Shown here: positions 34,805-57,529 of the stretch, piece after piece
Layout: each line of letters begins with the position of its first letter
Numbering within the stretch: the first letter of the stretch is position 1
Virus record (IMG/VR): IMGVR_UViG_3300017917_002963
Coordinates: 1 to 57,880 of that record
DNA from: a virus
Length of the DNA: 57,880 nt
Strand: one strand, 5' to 3'
The notes under the pieces: generated by a model
The model's database searches: none
Told to the model about the DNA's origin: nothing
The model's input: the letters and a program-made list of their open reading frames with translations, nothing else
Position numbers and translations under genes: made by a program

Positions 34805-36037
34805 ATGACAGATACTAGTAAGCCCCTATCACAAGCCATTCGCGAACAAAGCAAACTAAGCCAGTTTCGACTATACAGCGGACTAAAATTAATCGAAACA
34901 GGCAGCAATCGAGGAACAACAGATTATGCCGGTTCTGCAGCAGAACTCGGTATAACTGAACAGCAACTCAGAAAGATAATTGAACGAGTTAAAGGCATGT
35001 ACGGGCGCGAACCGGAATCGACTATCACTGTTGTCGAATACGTCAAAAAACTCAAAGAATCAAACGTGTCGCCAGACGATGTTGGGATAGGAGACGGAAA
35101 ATACCAAGCTGGGAGAAAAAACCACGACCTGCCGTATTCGTTTGATAATTTTGAATTTATTACGCAGCATGATAATTTGCTGGAAAAAGAAGAGAGGCTA
35201 AAAGAATCCAGCCGCTGGACAGCAAAACCAGTCATGACTCCGTTTGGAAAAGTAGAAAGTTTGGTCAAAGCGGCTGAGCAATTTGATGTCAACGTGGCTA
35301 CTATTAAGCGATGGATTGATTCTGGCGACGAGAAATACGCCGACTGGTTTTACGAAGGCGAGTATCCAGAAAAAATTGCAAAAAGAATGCGGCAAGACGG
35401 CAAACGTTTCTGGGCGGGCGATAACATAAGCGAGTATGTTGAAAATTTAGACATGCTGATCGATGACCTTGCGCCGAGATTCGAATCGGTGCTGAAGGGG
35501 CTTGTGATTGATACCGACACCGACCCCAACAGTCATGGCACAGCTCGCAGACTAGCCAAAATGTATGTTAGAGAAACAATGAGTGGACGCTATGACCCAG
35601 CACCAGACGCAACAGCATTTCCCAATAACTCGGAGGACCGCTACGAAGGTATGTTGGTTGTTCGCAGCGAGCTTCGCAGCATGTGCAGTCATCATCACCA
35701 ACCTGTCAGTGGTGTTGCTTATATTGGCATTATTGCTGCTGAGAAGCTCATCGGCCTCTCCAAGTACACCCGTATCGCACAGTGGTGCGCCCGACGTGGT
35801 ACTCTCCAGGAGGAGTTGGCTAATGACATTGCTCGGGAAATCATGAAGGCCACTGGTGCGAAGGATGTAGGTGTTTACATACAGGCCACGCACGGGTGCT
35901 GTGAAAACCGCGGCATCATGGCACACTCCAGTCTCACACAGACCACTGTGCTGAAAGGTGCATTCAAAAGCGATCCCGGTGTCAAGAAAGAGTTCTTTGA
36001 CAACATCAAACTTCAACAAGACTTTGCTCCGAGGTAA
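34805..36037 (+). CDS. folE: GTP cyclohydrolase I with fused homing-endonuclease-like N-terminal region (410 aa)
   Basis: The last ~210 residues are GTP cyclohydrolase I: SHGTARRLAKMYVRETM, the zinc motif SMCSHHHQPVSG, LIGLSKYTRI and HGCCENRG. It makes 7,8-dihydroneopterin triphosphate, the first step to 7-deazaguanine (and folate). The first ~200 residues are not FolE. AKPVMTPFGKVESLVKAAEQFDVNVATIKRWIDSG is a helix-turn-helix repeat typical of the DNA-binding part of HNH/GIY-YIG homing endonucleases. Its DNA is AT-richer than the FolE part, indicating an acquired segment fused in frame. Confidence 0.9.
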   Translation: MTDTSKPLSQAIREQSKLSQFRLYSGLKLIETGSNRGTTDYAGSAAELGITEQQLRKIIERVKGMYGREPESTITVVEYVKKLKESNVSPDDVGIGDGKYQAGRKNHDLPYSFDNFEFITQHDNLLEKEERLKESSRWTAKPVMTPFGKVESLVKAAEQFDVNVATIKRWIDSGDEKYADWFYEGEYPEKIAKRMRQDGKRFWAGDNISEYVENLDMLIDDLAPRFESVLKGLVIDTDTDPNSHGTARRLAKMYVRETMSGRYDPAPDATAFPNNSEDRYEGMLVVRSELRSMCSHHHQPVSGVAYIGIIAAEKLIGLSKYTRIAQWCARRGTLQEELANDIAREIMKATGAKDVGVYIQATHGCCENRGIMAHSSLTQTTVLKGAFKSDPGVKKEFFDNIKLQQDFAPR

Positions 36038-37842: not shown

Positions 37843-38451
37843 ATGTTAGATCGTATTTTTGGAACGTTGGATCGTGGCCTGGTTGCAAAACTGGTTGCGT
37901 TCCAGATTTTTGTCATTGCCATCAGCAATTGGATTGTGAGCTACAGTTTCAACATCTTTGGAACTGCACTCAGCTATGCGGCATTCACATTCCCCTTGGT
38001 GGTTGTGGCCACTGACCTCACTGTGCGAATGGTGGGCAAGGAAATGGGTCGTGTGGTGGTCACACTGTCATTCATCCCAGCCATCCTGATCAGCATGGCC
38101 ATTGTGGCCATGAGTGGAGCACCCTCCAACGTTGCCATCAGCATTGGTCTTGCTTCGGGCTGTGCCTACGCTGTGAGTACCATCCTAGACGTGTATGTGT
38201 TCAGTTACTTCCGCGAGAAGTATACGCAATGGTGGATCGCACCCACATTTGCCAGCGTGTTTACCATGATCATTGACACCTATACCTTCTACTATGTGGC
38301 CTTTGCCAATGTGCCCGGCAGCCCGTTTGAGCACAACTGGTTCAGCGCAGCGGCTGCCCACAGTGTGACCAAGATCGCAGTGAGCCTGTTGGTGATCCTG
38401 CCTGCATACGGTGTACTGCTCAACTACCTGCAAAAGCGGCTGGTCAAGTAA
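37843..38451 (+). CDS. yhhQ: queuosine precursor transporter, YhhQ/DUF165 family (202 aa)
   Basis: An integral membrane protein with about six hydrophobic segments. ANWIVSYSFNIFG, FTFPLVVVATDLTVRMVGKE and WWIAPTFASVFTMIIDTYTFYYVAF fit the YhhQ pattern (conserved D in the TDL and IDT helices). Host YhhQ imports preQ0/preQ1. Beside folE, queD, queE and dpdA, it probably salvages deazaguanine for DNA modification. Shine-Dalgarno AAGGAAA is present. Confidence 0.85.
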   Translation: MLDRIFGTLDRGLVAKLVAFQIFVIAISNWIVSYSFNIFGTALSYAAFTFPLVVVATDLTVRMVGKEMGRVVVTLSFIPAILISMAIVAMSGAPSNVAISIGLASGCAYAVSTILDVYVFSYFREKYTQWWIAPTFASVFTMIIDTYTFYYVAFANVPGSPFEHNWFSAAAAHSVTKIAVSLLVILPAYGVLLNYLQKRLVK

Positions 38452-46277: not shown

Positions 46278-46952
46278 ATGTACTCGAACTCAACTTATCT
46301 TTCGGCTAGTGAAATCAACACCGCCATGGCCGGCGTCTACAAACACATGGCGCTGGCTGTGTTGACCAGCATGGTTGTGAGCTGGGCAGTGAGCACTTCG
46401 CCTGCACTCATGGCCCTGTTGTTTGGGACTGCCCTGAAATGGGTGGTGATCTTTGCGCCCTTGGTGGCTGTGTTTGCCATGGGCATGAGCCTGCATCGAG
46501 TTGGCGCCGGCACAGCGGTGGCCATGCTGCATGGCTTTGCTGCACTCATGGGCTTGAGCATGTCCACCATATTTGCGGTGTACACATCACTCAGCATCTT
46601 CACAGCATTCATGAGCGCGGCCGTGCTGTTTGGGGTCATGAGCATTTACGGATACTTCACCAAGAAGGATCTGTCAAGCCTGGGCCAATATCTGTTTGTG
46701 GGCTTGATTGCCATCATCATTGCCAGCGTGATCAACATCTTTGTGGGCAGCAGCATTGCACAAATGGTGATCAGCGCCATTGCAGTGATTGTGTTCCTGG
46801 GTCTCACTGCCTATGACACACAAAACATTCGCGATCAGCTGACGTCAGGTGCAGGCGGCAACGTGGAGATTGCAGGTGCCTTGAGCTTGTATCTCAACTT
46901 CATCAACCTGTTCATGAGCCTGTTGCAACTGTTTGGCAATCGCGAGGACTGA
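46278..46952 (+). CDS. Bax-inhibitor-1/YccA-family membrane protein (224 aa)
   Basis: Seven hydrophobic segments separated by short loops. The C-terminal ALSLYLNFINLFMSLLQLFGNR and GLTAYDTQNIRDQL, with the Asp of the YDTQ motif, are signatures of BI-1/YccA proteins. In bacteria YccA modulates the FtsH membrane protease; related proteins conduct calcium. Phage copies may shield membrane proteins or delay lysis (inference). A TAAATA box (46252-46257) and Shine-Dalgarno AAGGAG precede it. Confidence 0.9.
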   Translation: MYSNSTYLSASEINTAMAGVYKHMALAVLTSMVVSWAVSTSPALMALLFGTALKWVVIFAPLVAVFAMGMSLHRVGAGTAVAMLHGFAALMGLSMSTIFAVYTSLSIFTAFMSAAVLFGVMSIYGYFTKKDLSSLGQYLFVGLIAIIIASVINIFVGSSIAQMVISAIAVIVFLGLTAYDTQNIRDQLTSGAGGNVEIAGALSLYLNFINLFMSLLQLFGNRED

Positions 46953-53569: not shown

Positions 53570-53645
53570 TAAGTAAGAGTTATTGCTGTATGAAGTGAGC
53601 AGAAACGGATTCAAGACGCGGGTTCGACTCCCGCCTGGTCCACCA
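53570..53645 (+). ncRNA. tmRNA acceptor piece
   Basis: Contains the 3' tRNA-like half: GACGCGGGTTCGACTCCCGC matches the near-invariant tmRNA T-arm region, followed by acceptor CTGGTCC (53635-53641), A, CCA. The 5' boundary is estimated from the TATAAT at 53558. Confidence 0.8.
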
Positions 53646-53725
53646 CAAGTAATCTAGAATGTGCTGTAGAAGCATAGAAGACCACTAAGCGGGCAACAGG
53701 ACTTGGGTTTTAGATTACTTTTGAT
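53646..53725 (+). ncRNA. tmRNA intervening segment with paired ends
   Basis: AAGTAATCTA (53647-53656) is perfectly complementary to TAGATTACTT (53711-53720). The spacer would thus fold into a 10-bp stem stacked on the acceptor stem, presenting both piece ends for processing. The loop is 54 bases. Confidence 0.8.
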
Positions 53726-53890
53726 GGGCCAGACCTGGCTTCGATTGGGTCAAGAGTATGCAAATGGACAGCACGGTAGGCGATGACCGTAAATCAAGCA
53801 AAATAGTAACTGCAACCGCAGCTAACGACGAAGTCTTCGCTCTCGCAGCGTGATTTCCGAGGCAACTATGCCTTGTCACCCAAAATAGTA
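53726..53890 (+). ncRNA. tmRNA coding piece
   Basis: Begins GGGCCAGACCTGGCTTCGAT and carries the tag reading frame. A hairpin (GAGGC ... GCCTT) downstream of the tag stop probably ends the piece. The 3' end is uncertain. Confidence 0.8.
53809..53853 (+). CDS. tmRNA proteolysis tag (TATAANDEVFALAA)
   Basis: In frame after TAGTA (53804-53808), the position equivalent to UAGUC in E. coli, codons give TATAANDEVFALAA then TGA. The ANDE ... ALAA form matches beta/gammaproteobacterial tags recognised by ClpXP/ClpAP. The exact resume codon (ACT or GCA) is not certain. Confidence 0.85.
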   Translation, partial: TATAANDEVFALAA

Positions 53891-54246: not shown

Positions 54247-54305
54247 AGATGTATGGTAAGGAGAACGGTGCATCGACACTGTGATCCCAAGTTCGTTAAC
54301 AATCA

Positions 54306-54493
54306 GCAGTGCAGTTTAGGCTGATGACGGCAATCGTCAGAAGGTCTGTATCTTGTCCCTTGGCGCACCGCTTTGCCGAGCGCACCGCTTAGGAGTCGCC
54401 CATAGTGTAGCGGAATGCATACCGTCCTAACAGGACGGGGGCTGGGTTCGAGTCCCAATGGTGTTTAACAAGCGTCAGCCTAAACTGCACTGC
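54306..54493 (+). repeat. 19-bp perfect inverted repeat enclosing a tRNA-like element
   Basis: GCAGTGCAGTTTAGGCTGA (54306-54324) and its exact reverse complement (54475-54493) bracket 150 bases. Those contain a TGACG-GCAAT-CGTCA hairpin, a tandem GCGCACCGCTT motif and the tRNA-like element at 54396-54470. The stem would isolate this RNA domain. Confidence 0.85.
54396..54470 (+). tRNA. tRNA-like element with AAC anticodon and poorly paired acceptor
   Basis: A clear anticodon arm (CCGTC-CTAACAG-GACGG, anticodon AAC, nominally Val) and T arm (TGGG-TTCGAGT-CCCA) are present. The D arm is weak (TGT/GCA), and the flanking acceptor strands do not pair beyond four bases. No CCA. Either a decayed tRNA or a tRNA-like domain within the bracketing stem. 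Confidence 0.45.
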
Positions 54494-54500
54494 AGAACAG

Positions 54501-54529
54501 TTGACACAAAATCGCAGGCGTGCTACAAT
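54501..54529 (+). promoter_or_regulatory. sigma70-like promoter
   Basis: TTGACA (54501-54506), 17-base spacer, TACAAT (54524-54529), just after the 19-bp inverted repeat. Confidence 0.8.
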
Positions 54530-54644: not shown

Positions 54645-54734
54645 GCCATATTCAAACGCACTAGATTTCTTTTGGTCGCATGACGGCGCTGTCCGGACTT
54701 GTGCTAGATTCCTTTTAGTGTGTTTGAATATGGC
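54645..54734 (+). repeat. spacer hairpin 1 (18-bp stem, 54-nt loop)
   Basis: GCCATATTCAAACGCACT (54645-54662) pairs with AGTGTGTTTGAATATGGC (54717-54734) with one G-U. The loop contains two copies of CTAGATTYCTTTT. Same design as the other array spacers. Confidence 0.85.
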
Positions 54735-54780
54735 ATGTGTCTGATCCACACTTGTCATAGTCGGGAGTAATTAACCCGAC

Positions 54781-54910
54781 GACCCGTGGTAGTTTAATGG
54801 TAAAACGCAGCGAGGCGTTGGTTCGAACCCAACCTTGGGGTACGCCCTGAGTAGCTCAGTCGGTAGAGCGCAGCGCGATGAGGGTTTCGAAGTCCCTCCC
54901 ACAATGGGTC
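54781..54910 (+). ncRNA. paired tRNA-like units without anticodon arms, acceptor strands swapped
   Basis: Unit 1 has strand GACCCGT, D arm GTTT-AATGGTA-AAAC, then only GCAGCGAGGC, T arm GTTGG-TTCGAAC-CCAAC and strand CTTGGGG. Unit 2 has strand CCCTGAG, TA, D arm GCTC-AGTCGGTA-GAGC, then GCAGCGCG, T arm around GAGGG/CCCTC and strand ATGGGTC. Acceptors do not pair within units. GACCCGT pairs with ATGGGTC (7/7, one G-U), and CTTGGGG with CCCTGAG (7/7, two G-U) across a TACG tetraloop. The result is a six-armed tRNA-like RNA with no anticodon. Confidence 0.75.
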
Positions 54911-55018: not shown

Positions 55019-55100
55019 CTATATGCAAACGCACTCTATCCTGGATCGTATGGTCTGGGAGACAACAGGGCTCATGCTCTGGTAGTGTGTTTCCATATAG
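55019..55100 (+). repeat. spacer hairpin 3
   Basis: CTATATGCAAACGCACT (55019-55035) pairs with AGTGTGTTTCCATATAG (55084-55100), 16 of 17 positions. The AAACGCACT/AGTGTGTTT core is shared with hairpin 1. It ends one base before tRNA-Glu. Confidence 0.85.
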
Positions 55101-57091: not shown

Positions 57092-57171
57092 GGCCGACGG
57101 GACTGCATGGAGTGGTCGCTTGCCTGTCACGCAAGAGAGTCAGAGGGGATCGTTACCCCTGTCGGTCGCCA
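57092..57171 (+). tRNA. tRNA-Asp (GTC), copy 3, A54 T loop
   Basis: Acceptor GGCCGAC/GTCGGTC (one G-U), D arm GACT/GGTC, anticodon arm CTTGC-CTGTCAC-GCAAG, T arm AGGGG-ATCGTTA-CCCCT, G73, CCA. A TATACT (about 57079-57084) lies just upstream. Its CCA is the start of the following spacer stem. Confidence 0.85.
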
Positions 57172-57258
57172 TATAAAAACACGCCGATTGAGGTGATGTG
57201 CCCCGACGCTAGGTTTCGGGTATGACTATGGACCCTCCCATAGTGTGTTTTTATATGG
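57169..57258 (+). repeat. spacer hairpin 6, sequestering the tRNA CCA end
   Basis: CCATATAAAAACAC (57169-57182), beginning with the CCA of tRNA-Asp copy 3, is a perfect complement of GTGTTTTTATATGG (57245-57258). The loop is 62 bases. Confidence 0.88.
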
Positions 57259-57529
57259 TCATTGGTTGAATTAGGGTTCAACACAAAATCCAGAGCGGTG
57301 CGTCCAGCATCGTTAAGTAGGGAAAGTCGGATACAAACTGCGAAGTGACTGTGAGTGTATGTTGATTAGGCGCTATCGAATATCGTCGATATTCGATAGC
57401 GCAGCGCTATCGAATATCGGGCTACTCCCGACGCTATCGACATTTGTAGCTTGCACGAGCAAAAAGAGATTGGAAGGGAATTGATCACCCTGAAGGTCCC
57501 GAGCAGTCAAGTTCAAACGCCGACAACTG
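57259..57529 (+). other. 271-base non-coding interval with palindromic repeats
   Basis: Contains GGGTTCAACACAAAATCC (T-arm-like) near 57284 and the palindrome cluster described separately. No gene or complete tRNA seen. Confidence 0.5.
57370..57419 (+). repeat. three alternating copies of a 16-bp sequence forming perfect palindromes
   Basis: GCGCTATCGAATATCG (57370-57385), its reverse complement (57387-57402) and again the direct copy (57404-57419), separated by single bases. A fourth partial copy (CGCTATCGA) lies at about 57432-57440. As RNA it forms a near-loopless 16-bp hairpin; as DNA it could bind a dimeric protein. Confidence 0.9.

Follow-up and report, generated by a model that had tools for sequence, protein, structure and literature searches.

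The tRNA is among the best-studied folds. The described RNA that comes closest to the element reported here is YrlA, a bacterial Y RNA (Rfam RF02553) with which it shares a T arm, a closed acceptor hairpin, a TA dinucleotide and a D arm in permuted order, and the lack of an anticodon. For the tRNA-like domain of YrlA a decoy role has been suggested, without demonstration (PMC7790460). A search of the open-licence literature returned no description of a two-headed, strand-swapped form of tRNA; YrlA and mitochondrial armless tRNAs were found instead. The element described below is very probably a real, undescribed RNA of that form, since related phages, one of them lab-grown, keep its shape while changing its letters.

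The element occupies positions 54760-54910 (full extent) on the plus strand of the window, the whole 57,880-nucleotide stretch of viral DNA that was analyzed. It lies in non-coding DNA within a tRNA cluster, which contains a permuted tmRNA as well. The order of parts is D arm 1, linker, T arm 1, 18-nt hairpin, D arm 2, linker, T arm 2 (Table 1), closed by two outer strands. The first-pass annotation had described two units with D and T arms and only a short stretch in place of an anticodon arm, and both units were indeed present, with linkers of 10 nt each. It had also proposed that acceptor strands pair across the units. For the inner strands this holds at every position. The outer strands pair as well, but not best in the proposed register GACCCGT/ATGGGTC; pairing of GACCCGTGG with CCAC-AAT-GGGTC is better and gives 9 bp with a 3-nt bulge. 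Drawn in this way the outer stem abuts the T stem and the TA preceding the D arm, as expected of an acceptor. The chance of obtaining both cross-unit pairings from random strands is p ~2.6e-6. The accompanying claim that acceptors fail to pair within a unit is not wholly right for unit 1 of the window, which still pairs at 5/7 positions; in the homologues such pairing is lost. The folding energy of the window alone is unremarkable (z -0.26); the structure is shown by covariation.

Table 1. Features of the element and of related loci. Positions refer to the window unless another record is named.
Feature	Position	Strand	Details
Promoter-like TTGACA-17-TACAAT	54501..54529	+	11/12 consensus matches, TG before second hexamer
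Upstream hairpin GTCGGG-AGTAATTAA-CCCGAC	54760..54780	+	directly abuts outer stem on 5' side
Outer acceptor-like stem, 5' strand GACCC-GTGG	54781..54789	+	pairs with 54899-54902 and 54906-54910
D arm 1 (GTTT AATGGTA AAAC), TA before it (tRNA 8-9)	54792..54806	+	4-bp stem
Linker 1 GCAGCGAGGC, where tRNA has anticodon arm	54807..54816	+	10 nt
T arm 1 (GTTGG TTCGAAC CCAAC)	54817..54833	+	5-bp stem; 3/5 pairs change on both sides
Inner acceptor hairpin CTTGGGG-TACG-CCCTGAG	54834..54851	+	7/7 pairs, 54834-54840 with 54845-54851
D arm 2 (GCTC AGTCGGTA GAGC), TA before it	54854..54869	+	4-bp stem
Linker 2 GCAGCGCGAT, where tRNA has anticodon arm	54870..54879	+	10 nt; starts like linker 1
T arm 2 (GAGGG TTTCGAAGT CCCTC)	54880..54898	+	5-bp stem; 4/5 pairs change on both sides
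Outer acceptor-like stem, 3' strand CCAC-AAT-GGGTC	54899..54910	+	invariant in window, L050, L355, L356
Permuted tRNA module, YrlA-like layout	54816..54869	+	Rfam RF02553 positions 30-81, 23.6 bits
CCATATTxAA hairpins	window 54646-54733, 55019-55100, 57169-57258; L356 2327-2395, 2514-2605, 5355-5438, 5618-5723		also in L050
Actinophage Y-RNA-like modules beside Ro-like genes	MK112548.1 128305-128438; MN484601.1 88117-88223; OR253908.1 32791-32952		

Standard annotation calls half of the element a poor tRNA, or nothing, which agrees with the earlier remark that it lies beyond such annotation. The Rfam tRNA model (RF00005) matched unit 1 with 35.5 bits, the anticodon arm being deleted. Neither the window, with its short linkers, nor any homologue has an anticodon arm. 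An acceptor within a single D-T unit and a CCA end, as in RF00005, were not found, and the window sequence encodes no CCA after 54910. A tmRNA search of 54760-54910 gave no match, and a tag-encoding mRNA-like domain was absent there.

The window's DNA polymerase is closest to its counterparts in the jumbo phages Phosso and Atu_ph07, so the genome of which the window is a part is probably far larger. The permuted tmRNA (53584-53853) has the tag ATAANDEVFALAA, and its match to a betaproteobacterial tmRNA model is a hint to the host. Long hairpins flank the element. A family of long hairpins closed by CCATATTxAA..TTxAATATGG occurs next to tRNAs, and one of these hairpins encloses a T-arm-like fold. 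The promoter-like site upstream may drive the element's transcript; the evidence is weak because the count of such sites is not far above that in shuffles. Another conserved structured RNA, in which a long stem encloses a tRNA-Val-like unit, was seen at 54287-54496 in the window and 1965-2160 in L356 (65 nt at 82% identity). Elsewhere the window encodes GTP cyclohydrolase I and a Vut_1 (queuosine-precursor-type) transporter (34805-36037, 37843-38451), which suggests 7-deazaguanine metabolism, and a Bax1-I family protein (46278-46952; PF01027, E 5.7e-54). The stretch 57370-57419 holds GCGCTATCGAATATCG as three alternating 16-nt inverted copies.

Homologues of the same layout, with 49-76% identity, were found in three IMG/VR contigs (L050, L355 and L356) and in the cultured Sinorhizobium phage Phosso. 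L050 was reached by a pattern scan, and its neighbourhood has the same upstream hairpin and 3' end; L355 and L356 were reached by searching with the conserved hairpin plus T loop. When the DNA of the window and L356 was compared, the element was the second-best match after one tRNA gene (75%, E 5e-24). A covariance model built from the window, L050, L355 and L356 found the Phosso copy (57.5 bits, E 5.5e-14; region 427337-427485) between a CDS and a tRNA-Lys gene, where nothing is annotated. The close homologues conserve the ends and the upstream hairpin. L050, L355, L356 and Phosso were checked for full anticodon arms, which the first-pass annotation had named as a sign of assembly error, and none has one.

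Three more distant doubles (L045, L037 and L091) were recognized by the order of their arms, which is thus the same in eight records. L037 and L091 were counted by arms and linkers and not by score, and model scores of 20-43 bits are no proof of the double form because Y RNAs and a Bacteroidota RNA reach them. A general scan for T-hairpin-D modules brought up Y RNAs of the YrlA kind in large number, along with some tandem tRNAs; therefore pairing of the hairpin and flanking D1 and T2 arms were required. BLAST of the window element against phage records gave no match, and none of 26 relatives reached by way of a neighbouring protein has the element at the DNA level. Inspected by eye, five regions from partial BLAST matches of L356 and the region from one L037 BLAST match looked like tandem tRNAs or tRNA-like units and not doubles. 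The L254-L263 matches likewise look like tandem tRNA-type units.

The four close sequences (window, L050, L355 and L356) were aligned with MAFFT only, that is with no structural knowledge. In the swapped structure 17/40 pairs change on both sides yet stay paired. Shuffles of the alignment gave 6.9 such pairs and 0/500 reached 17. The swapped structure left 93.8% of the cells paired vs 32-56% when it was slid along the alignment. A lack of compensatory change in the swapped stems, which the first-pass annotation had named as a refutation, was not seen: such change fills the inner acceptor hairpin, where 6/7 pairs change on both sides among the four phages. Unconstrained RNAalifold folding of the same alignment, in which D arm 1 was misaligned, gave the outer stem and the inner hairpin, together with both T arms and D arm 2, and 19 both-side-changed pairs. 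The D arm 1 stem shows compensatory changes among the homologues and the D arm 2 stem GCTC/GAGC becomes GGTT/AACC in L355. The loop of T arm 2 has 9 nt in the window, L355 and Phosso vs the usual 7. In the upstream hairpin the loop and GGG/CCC are identical in the close four and the outermost pair covaries (GC/AT/TA); Phosso has the variant loop ACGTAATTAA.

The outer stem is invariant in the close four except for one pair in L050, and two of its pairs are changed on both sides in Phosso. Because of this near invariance, evidence of covariation in the outer stem comes from Phosso and the distant relatives. The Phosso row was aligned by hand because MAFFT misaligned it. In the resulting alignment of four close sequences and one distant, hand-fitted sequence, all of shared ancestry, 26/41 pairs change on both sides and 195/198 cells pair. 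Shuffles reached at most 17 both-side-changed pairs, and unconstrained folding gave back the drawn structure. On this comparison of sequences we regard the helices and the swapped order of strands as almost certainly real. The paired architecture supported by this covariation also bears out the idea that the element mimics two joined tRNAs.

The linkers of the homologues are 9-12 nt long. In L045, L037 and L091 positions 2-6 of the two linkers are mutually complementary (5/5 each, in one register), and the chance of 5-bp complementarity in three of seven is ~1.4e-5. Judged by this complementarity, the 5-bp pairing is a shared anticodon-like stem. The L355 linkers are complementary at 4/5 positions in the same register. 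The window linkers form at most 3 bp in a different register, and no shared linker stem was found in L050 and L356, which rules it out as a universal feature. Within each of the L050 and L356 elements the two linkers have the same sequence, GCAAGAGAY, although they are unable to pair together.

The explanation that we consider best overall, and hold with moderate confidence, is that the element would be one noncoding RNA with two interlocked tRNA-like heads that serves as a Y-RNA-like scaffold or decoy. The outer head would consist of the acceptor-like stem, D arm 1 and T arm 2. Its anticodon loop would be replaced by a circularly permuted tRNA head made of T arm 1, the closed acceptor hairpin and D arm 2. 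To the Rfam tRNA model the outer strands of L091 are a single tRNA that carries an insert (42.5 bits). The linkers of some members would form a shared anticodon-like stem that joins the heads. Both D/T pairs may dock as tRNA elbows, giving a tRNA body that has two heads but no anticodon and no CCA. Since neither of these is present the element cannot decode. Its function is a more tentative matter: it may be a stable tRNA-mimicking scaffold or decoy, like Y RNAs, for proteins that recognize the tRNA elbow and acceptor stem, to which it would offer no anticodon loop. Candidate partners would be enzymes that modify or process tRNA, a defence protein that attacks tRNA, or a Ro-like protein, and the conserved 5' hairpin and the bulged outer stem are probable protein sites. 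As to origin, an anticodon-armless tRNA may plausibly have been duplicated, after which strands were swapped. With greater reserve, we put forward a new architecture in which two tRNA bodies might be interlocked by swapped acceptors, tail to tail at the shared anticodon-like stem, as a two-headed protein scaffold or decoy of phages. If true, such an RNA would be a naturally occurring domain swap of tRNA within one molecule. It may also show why phages with large tRNA clusters, facing tRNA-cleaving defences, carry tRNA-shaped RNAs that do not decode. Because one homologue resides in the cultured phage Phosso, its transcript, structure, partners and fitness effect are directly testable.

The element could instead act in cis, as a processing or folding element of a polycistronic tRNA-cluster transcript, with no role as a free RNA; its two elbows and outer stem would then bring RNase P or another tRNA-processing enzyme into place. 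RNase P reads the elbow and acceptor of tRNA. The copies in the window, L356, L045 and Phosso lie in non-coding DNA inside tRNA clusters, and the flanking long hairpins would fit as well. However, the tRNAs of the cluster have processing signals of their own, ARAGORN found no tRNA near the copies in the L037 and L050 stretches, and the closed acceptor of the permuted head offers RNase P no 5' end to make. We consider a purely cis-acting role unlikely.

A more specific proposal, which had been raised from the start, is an anti-defence decoy whose heads titrate a tRNA-cleaving nuclease or its sensor and are uncuttable at the anticodon. Defences that attack tRNA are widespread and the role suggested, without demonstration, for the YrlA domain is similar. 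On the other hand, anticodon nucleases mostly read the anticodon arm, the very part that is missing, and no defence-system context was seen here. This proposal appears rather improbable. The first-pass annotation had also suggested decoying of tRNA-processing or charging enzymes and resistance to anticodon nucleases; neither gained support from this analysis.

The two units might also be separate tRNA-like RNAs that lack an anticodon arm, lie in tandem and each form an acceptor independently. Stand-alone armless units are common in viral contigs (62/88 distinct ones have at least 6/7 acceptor pairs) and unit 1 scores as a tRNA. In the four-way alignment, however, only 41% of the cells of within-unit acceptors are paired and 0 pairs are compensatory, the energy is -13.2 vs -45.9 kcal/mol for the swapped structure, and the outer 5' strand would have stayed invariant while its partner changed freely. 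Covariation and energy thus refute tandem independent units for the window family, and we regard them as highly improbable. Decayed tRNA pseudogenes or an assembly error, brought to mind by the degenerate look of other units in the cluster, are effectively excluded by the arm order common to the eight records, the ends and hairpin kept in the close ones and the pervasive compensatory change, as the first-pass annotation anticipated in calling the pattern hard to get by decay.

The interlocked RNA that we favor can be set beside several known systems. With the canonical tRNA it shares the D arm, the T arm with TTCGA, the acceptor geometry and TA at positions 8-9; it differs in the absence of an anticodon arm and CCA, in the swapped acceptor strands and in having two bodies in one RNA. 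Like the tRNA-like domain of tmRNA it has no anticodon, but it lacks a tag reading frame and the phage has its separate permuted tmRNA. Stand-alone armless units of viral contigs, of which one narrow pattern retrieved 88 distinct examples (L028-L130), also consist of a D arm, a short linker (mostly 8 nt, e.g. cttgggtc) and a T arm. They pair their acceptor within the unit (48 with 7/7 and 14 with 6/7 pairs), whereas the element swaps strands. Tandem permuted tRNA modules in the order T-hairpin-D-linker-T were also seen in L264-L325, most of which are Bacteroidota genomes; examples are L319:5517-5674 and L275:5390-5489. A WYL regulator lies on one side of the modules and a Band_7 gene on the other, as checked on both flanks in L319 and L275. 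Rfam gave only partial tRNA matches for these modules. They form a chain in which no D arm 1 or closing outer stem was seen, in contrast to the interlocked pair of the element. Neither the stand-alone units nor the Bacteroidota modules were described in the open-licence literature searched.

The relation to YrlA depends on the part compared. The permuted module aligns to the YrlA model, but the whole-model score falls far short of the gathering score (69 bits). Outside the module, where YrlA has its Ro60-binding stem, positions 1-29 and 82-114 of the model are unmatched, and D arm 1, T arm 2 and the bulged outer stem stand in their place; a divergent Ro site in the outer stem is possible. A gene for a Ro-like protein (XYS97555.1, 115 bits) is present in Phosso, whose genome is the only complete one to hold the element, and lies 137 kb from it. 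No Ro60/TROVE gene was found in the seven other records, all fragments, and RtcB was not found in any record searched. Atu_ph07 has Ro but no convincing element. Phosso has no standard YrlA; the one match to the YrlA model there spans two ordinary tRNA genes. Permuted tRNA-like, Y-RNA-like modules lie beside Ro-like genes in three actinophages (Table 1). Together with the Ro-like protein of Phosso they support, but do not show, a Ro partner for the element. YrlA joins its module to a Ro-binding stem, whereas here a second tRNA-like head, which has D and T arms of its own, surrounds the module. The element would extend Y-RNA-like mimicry of tRNA.
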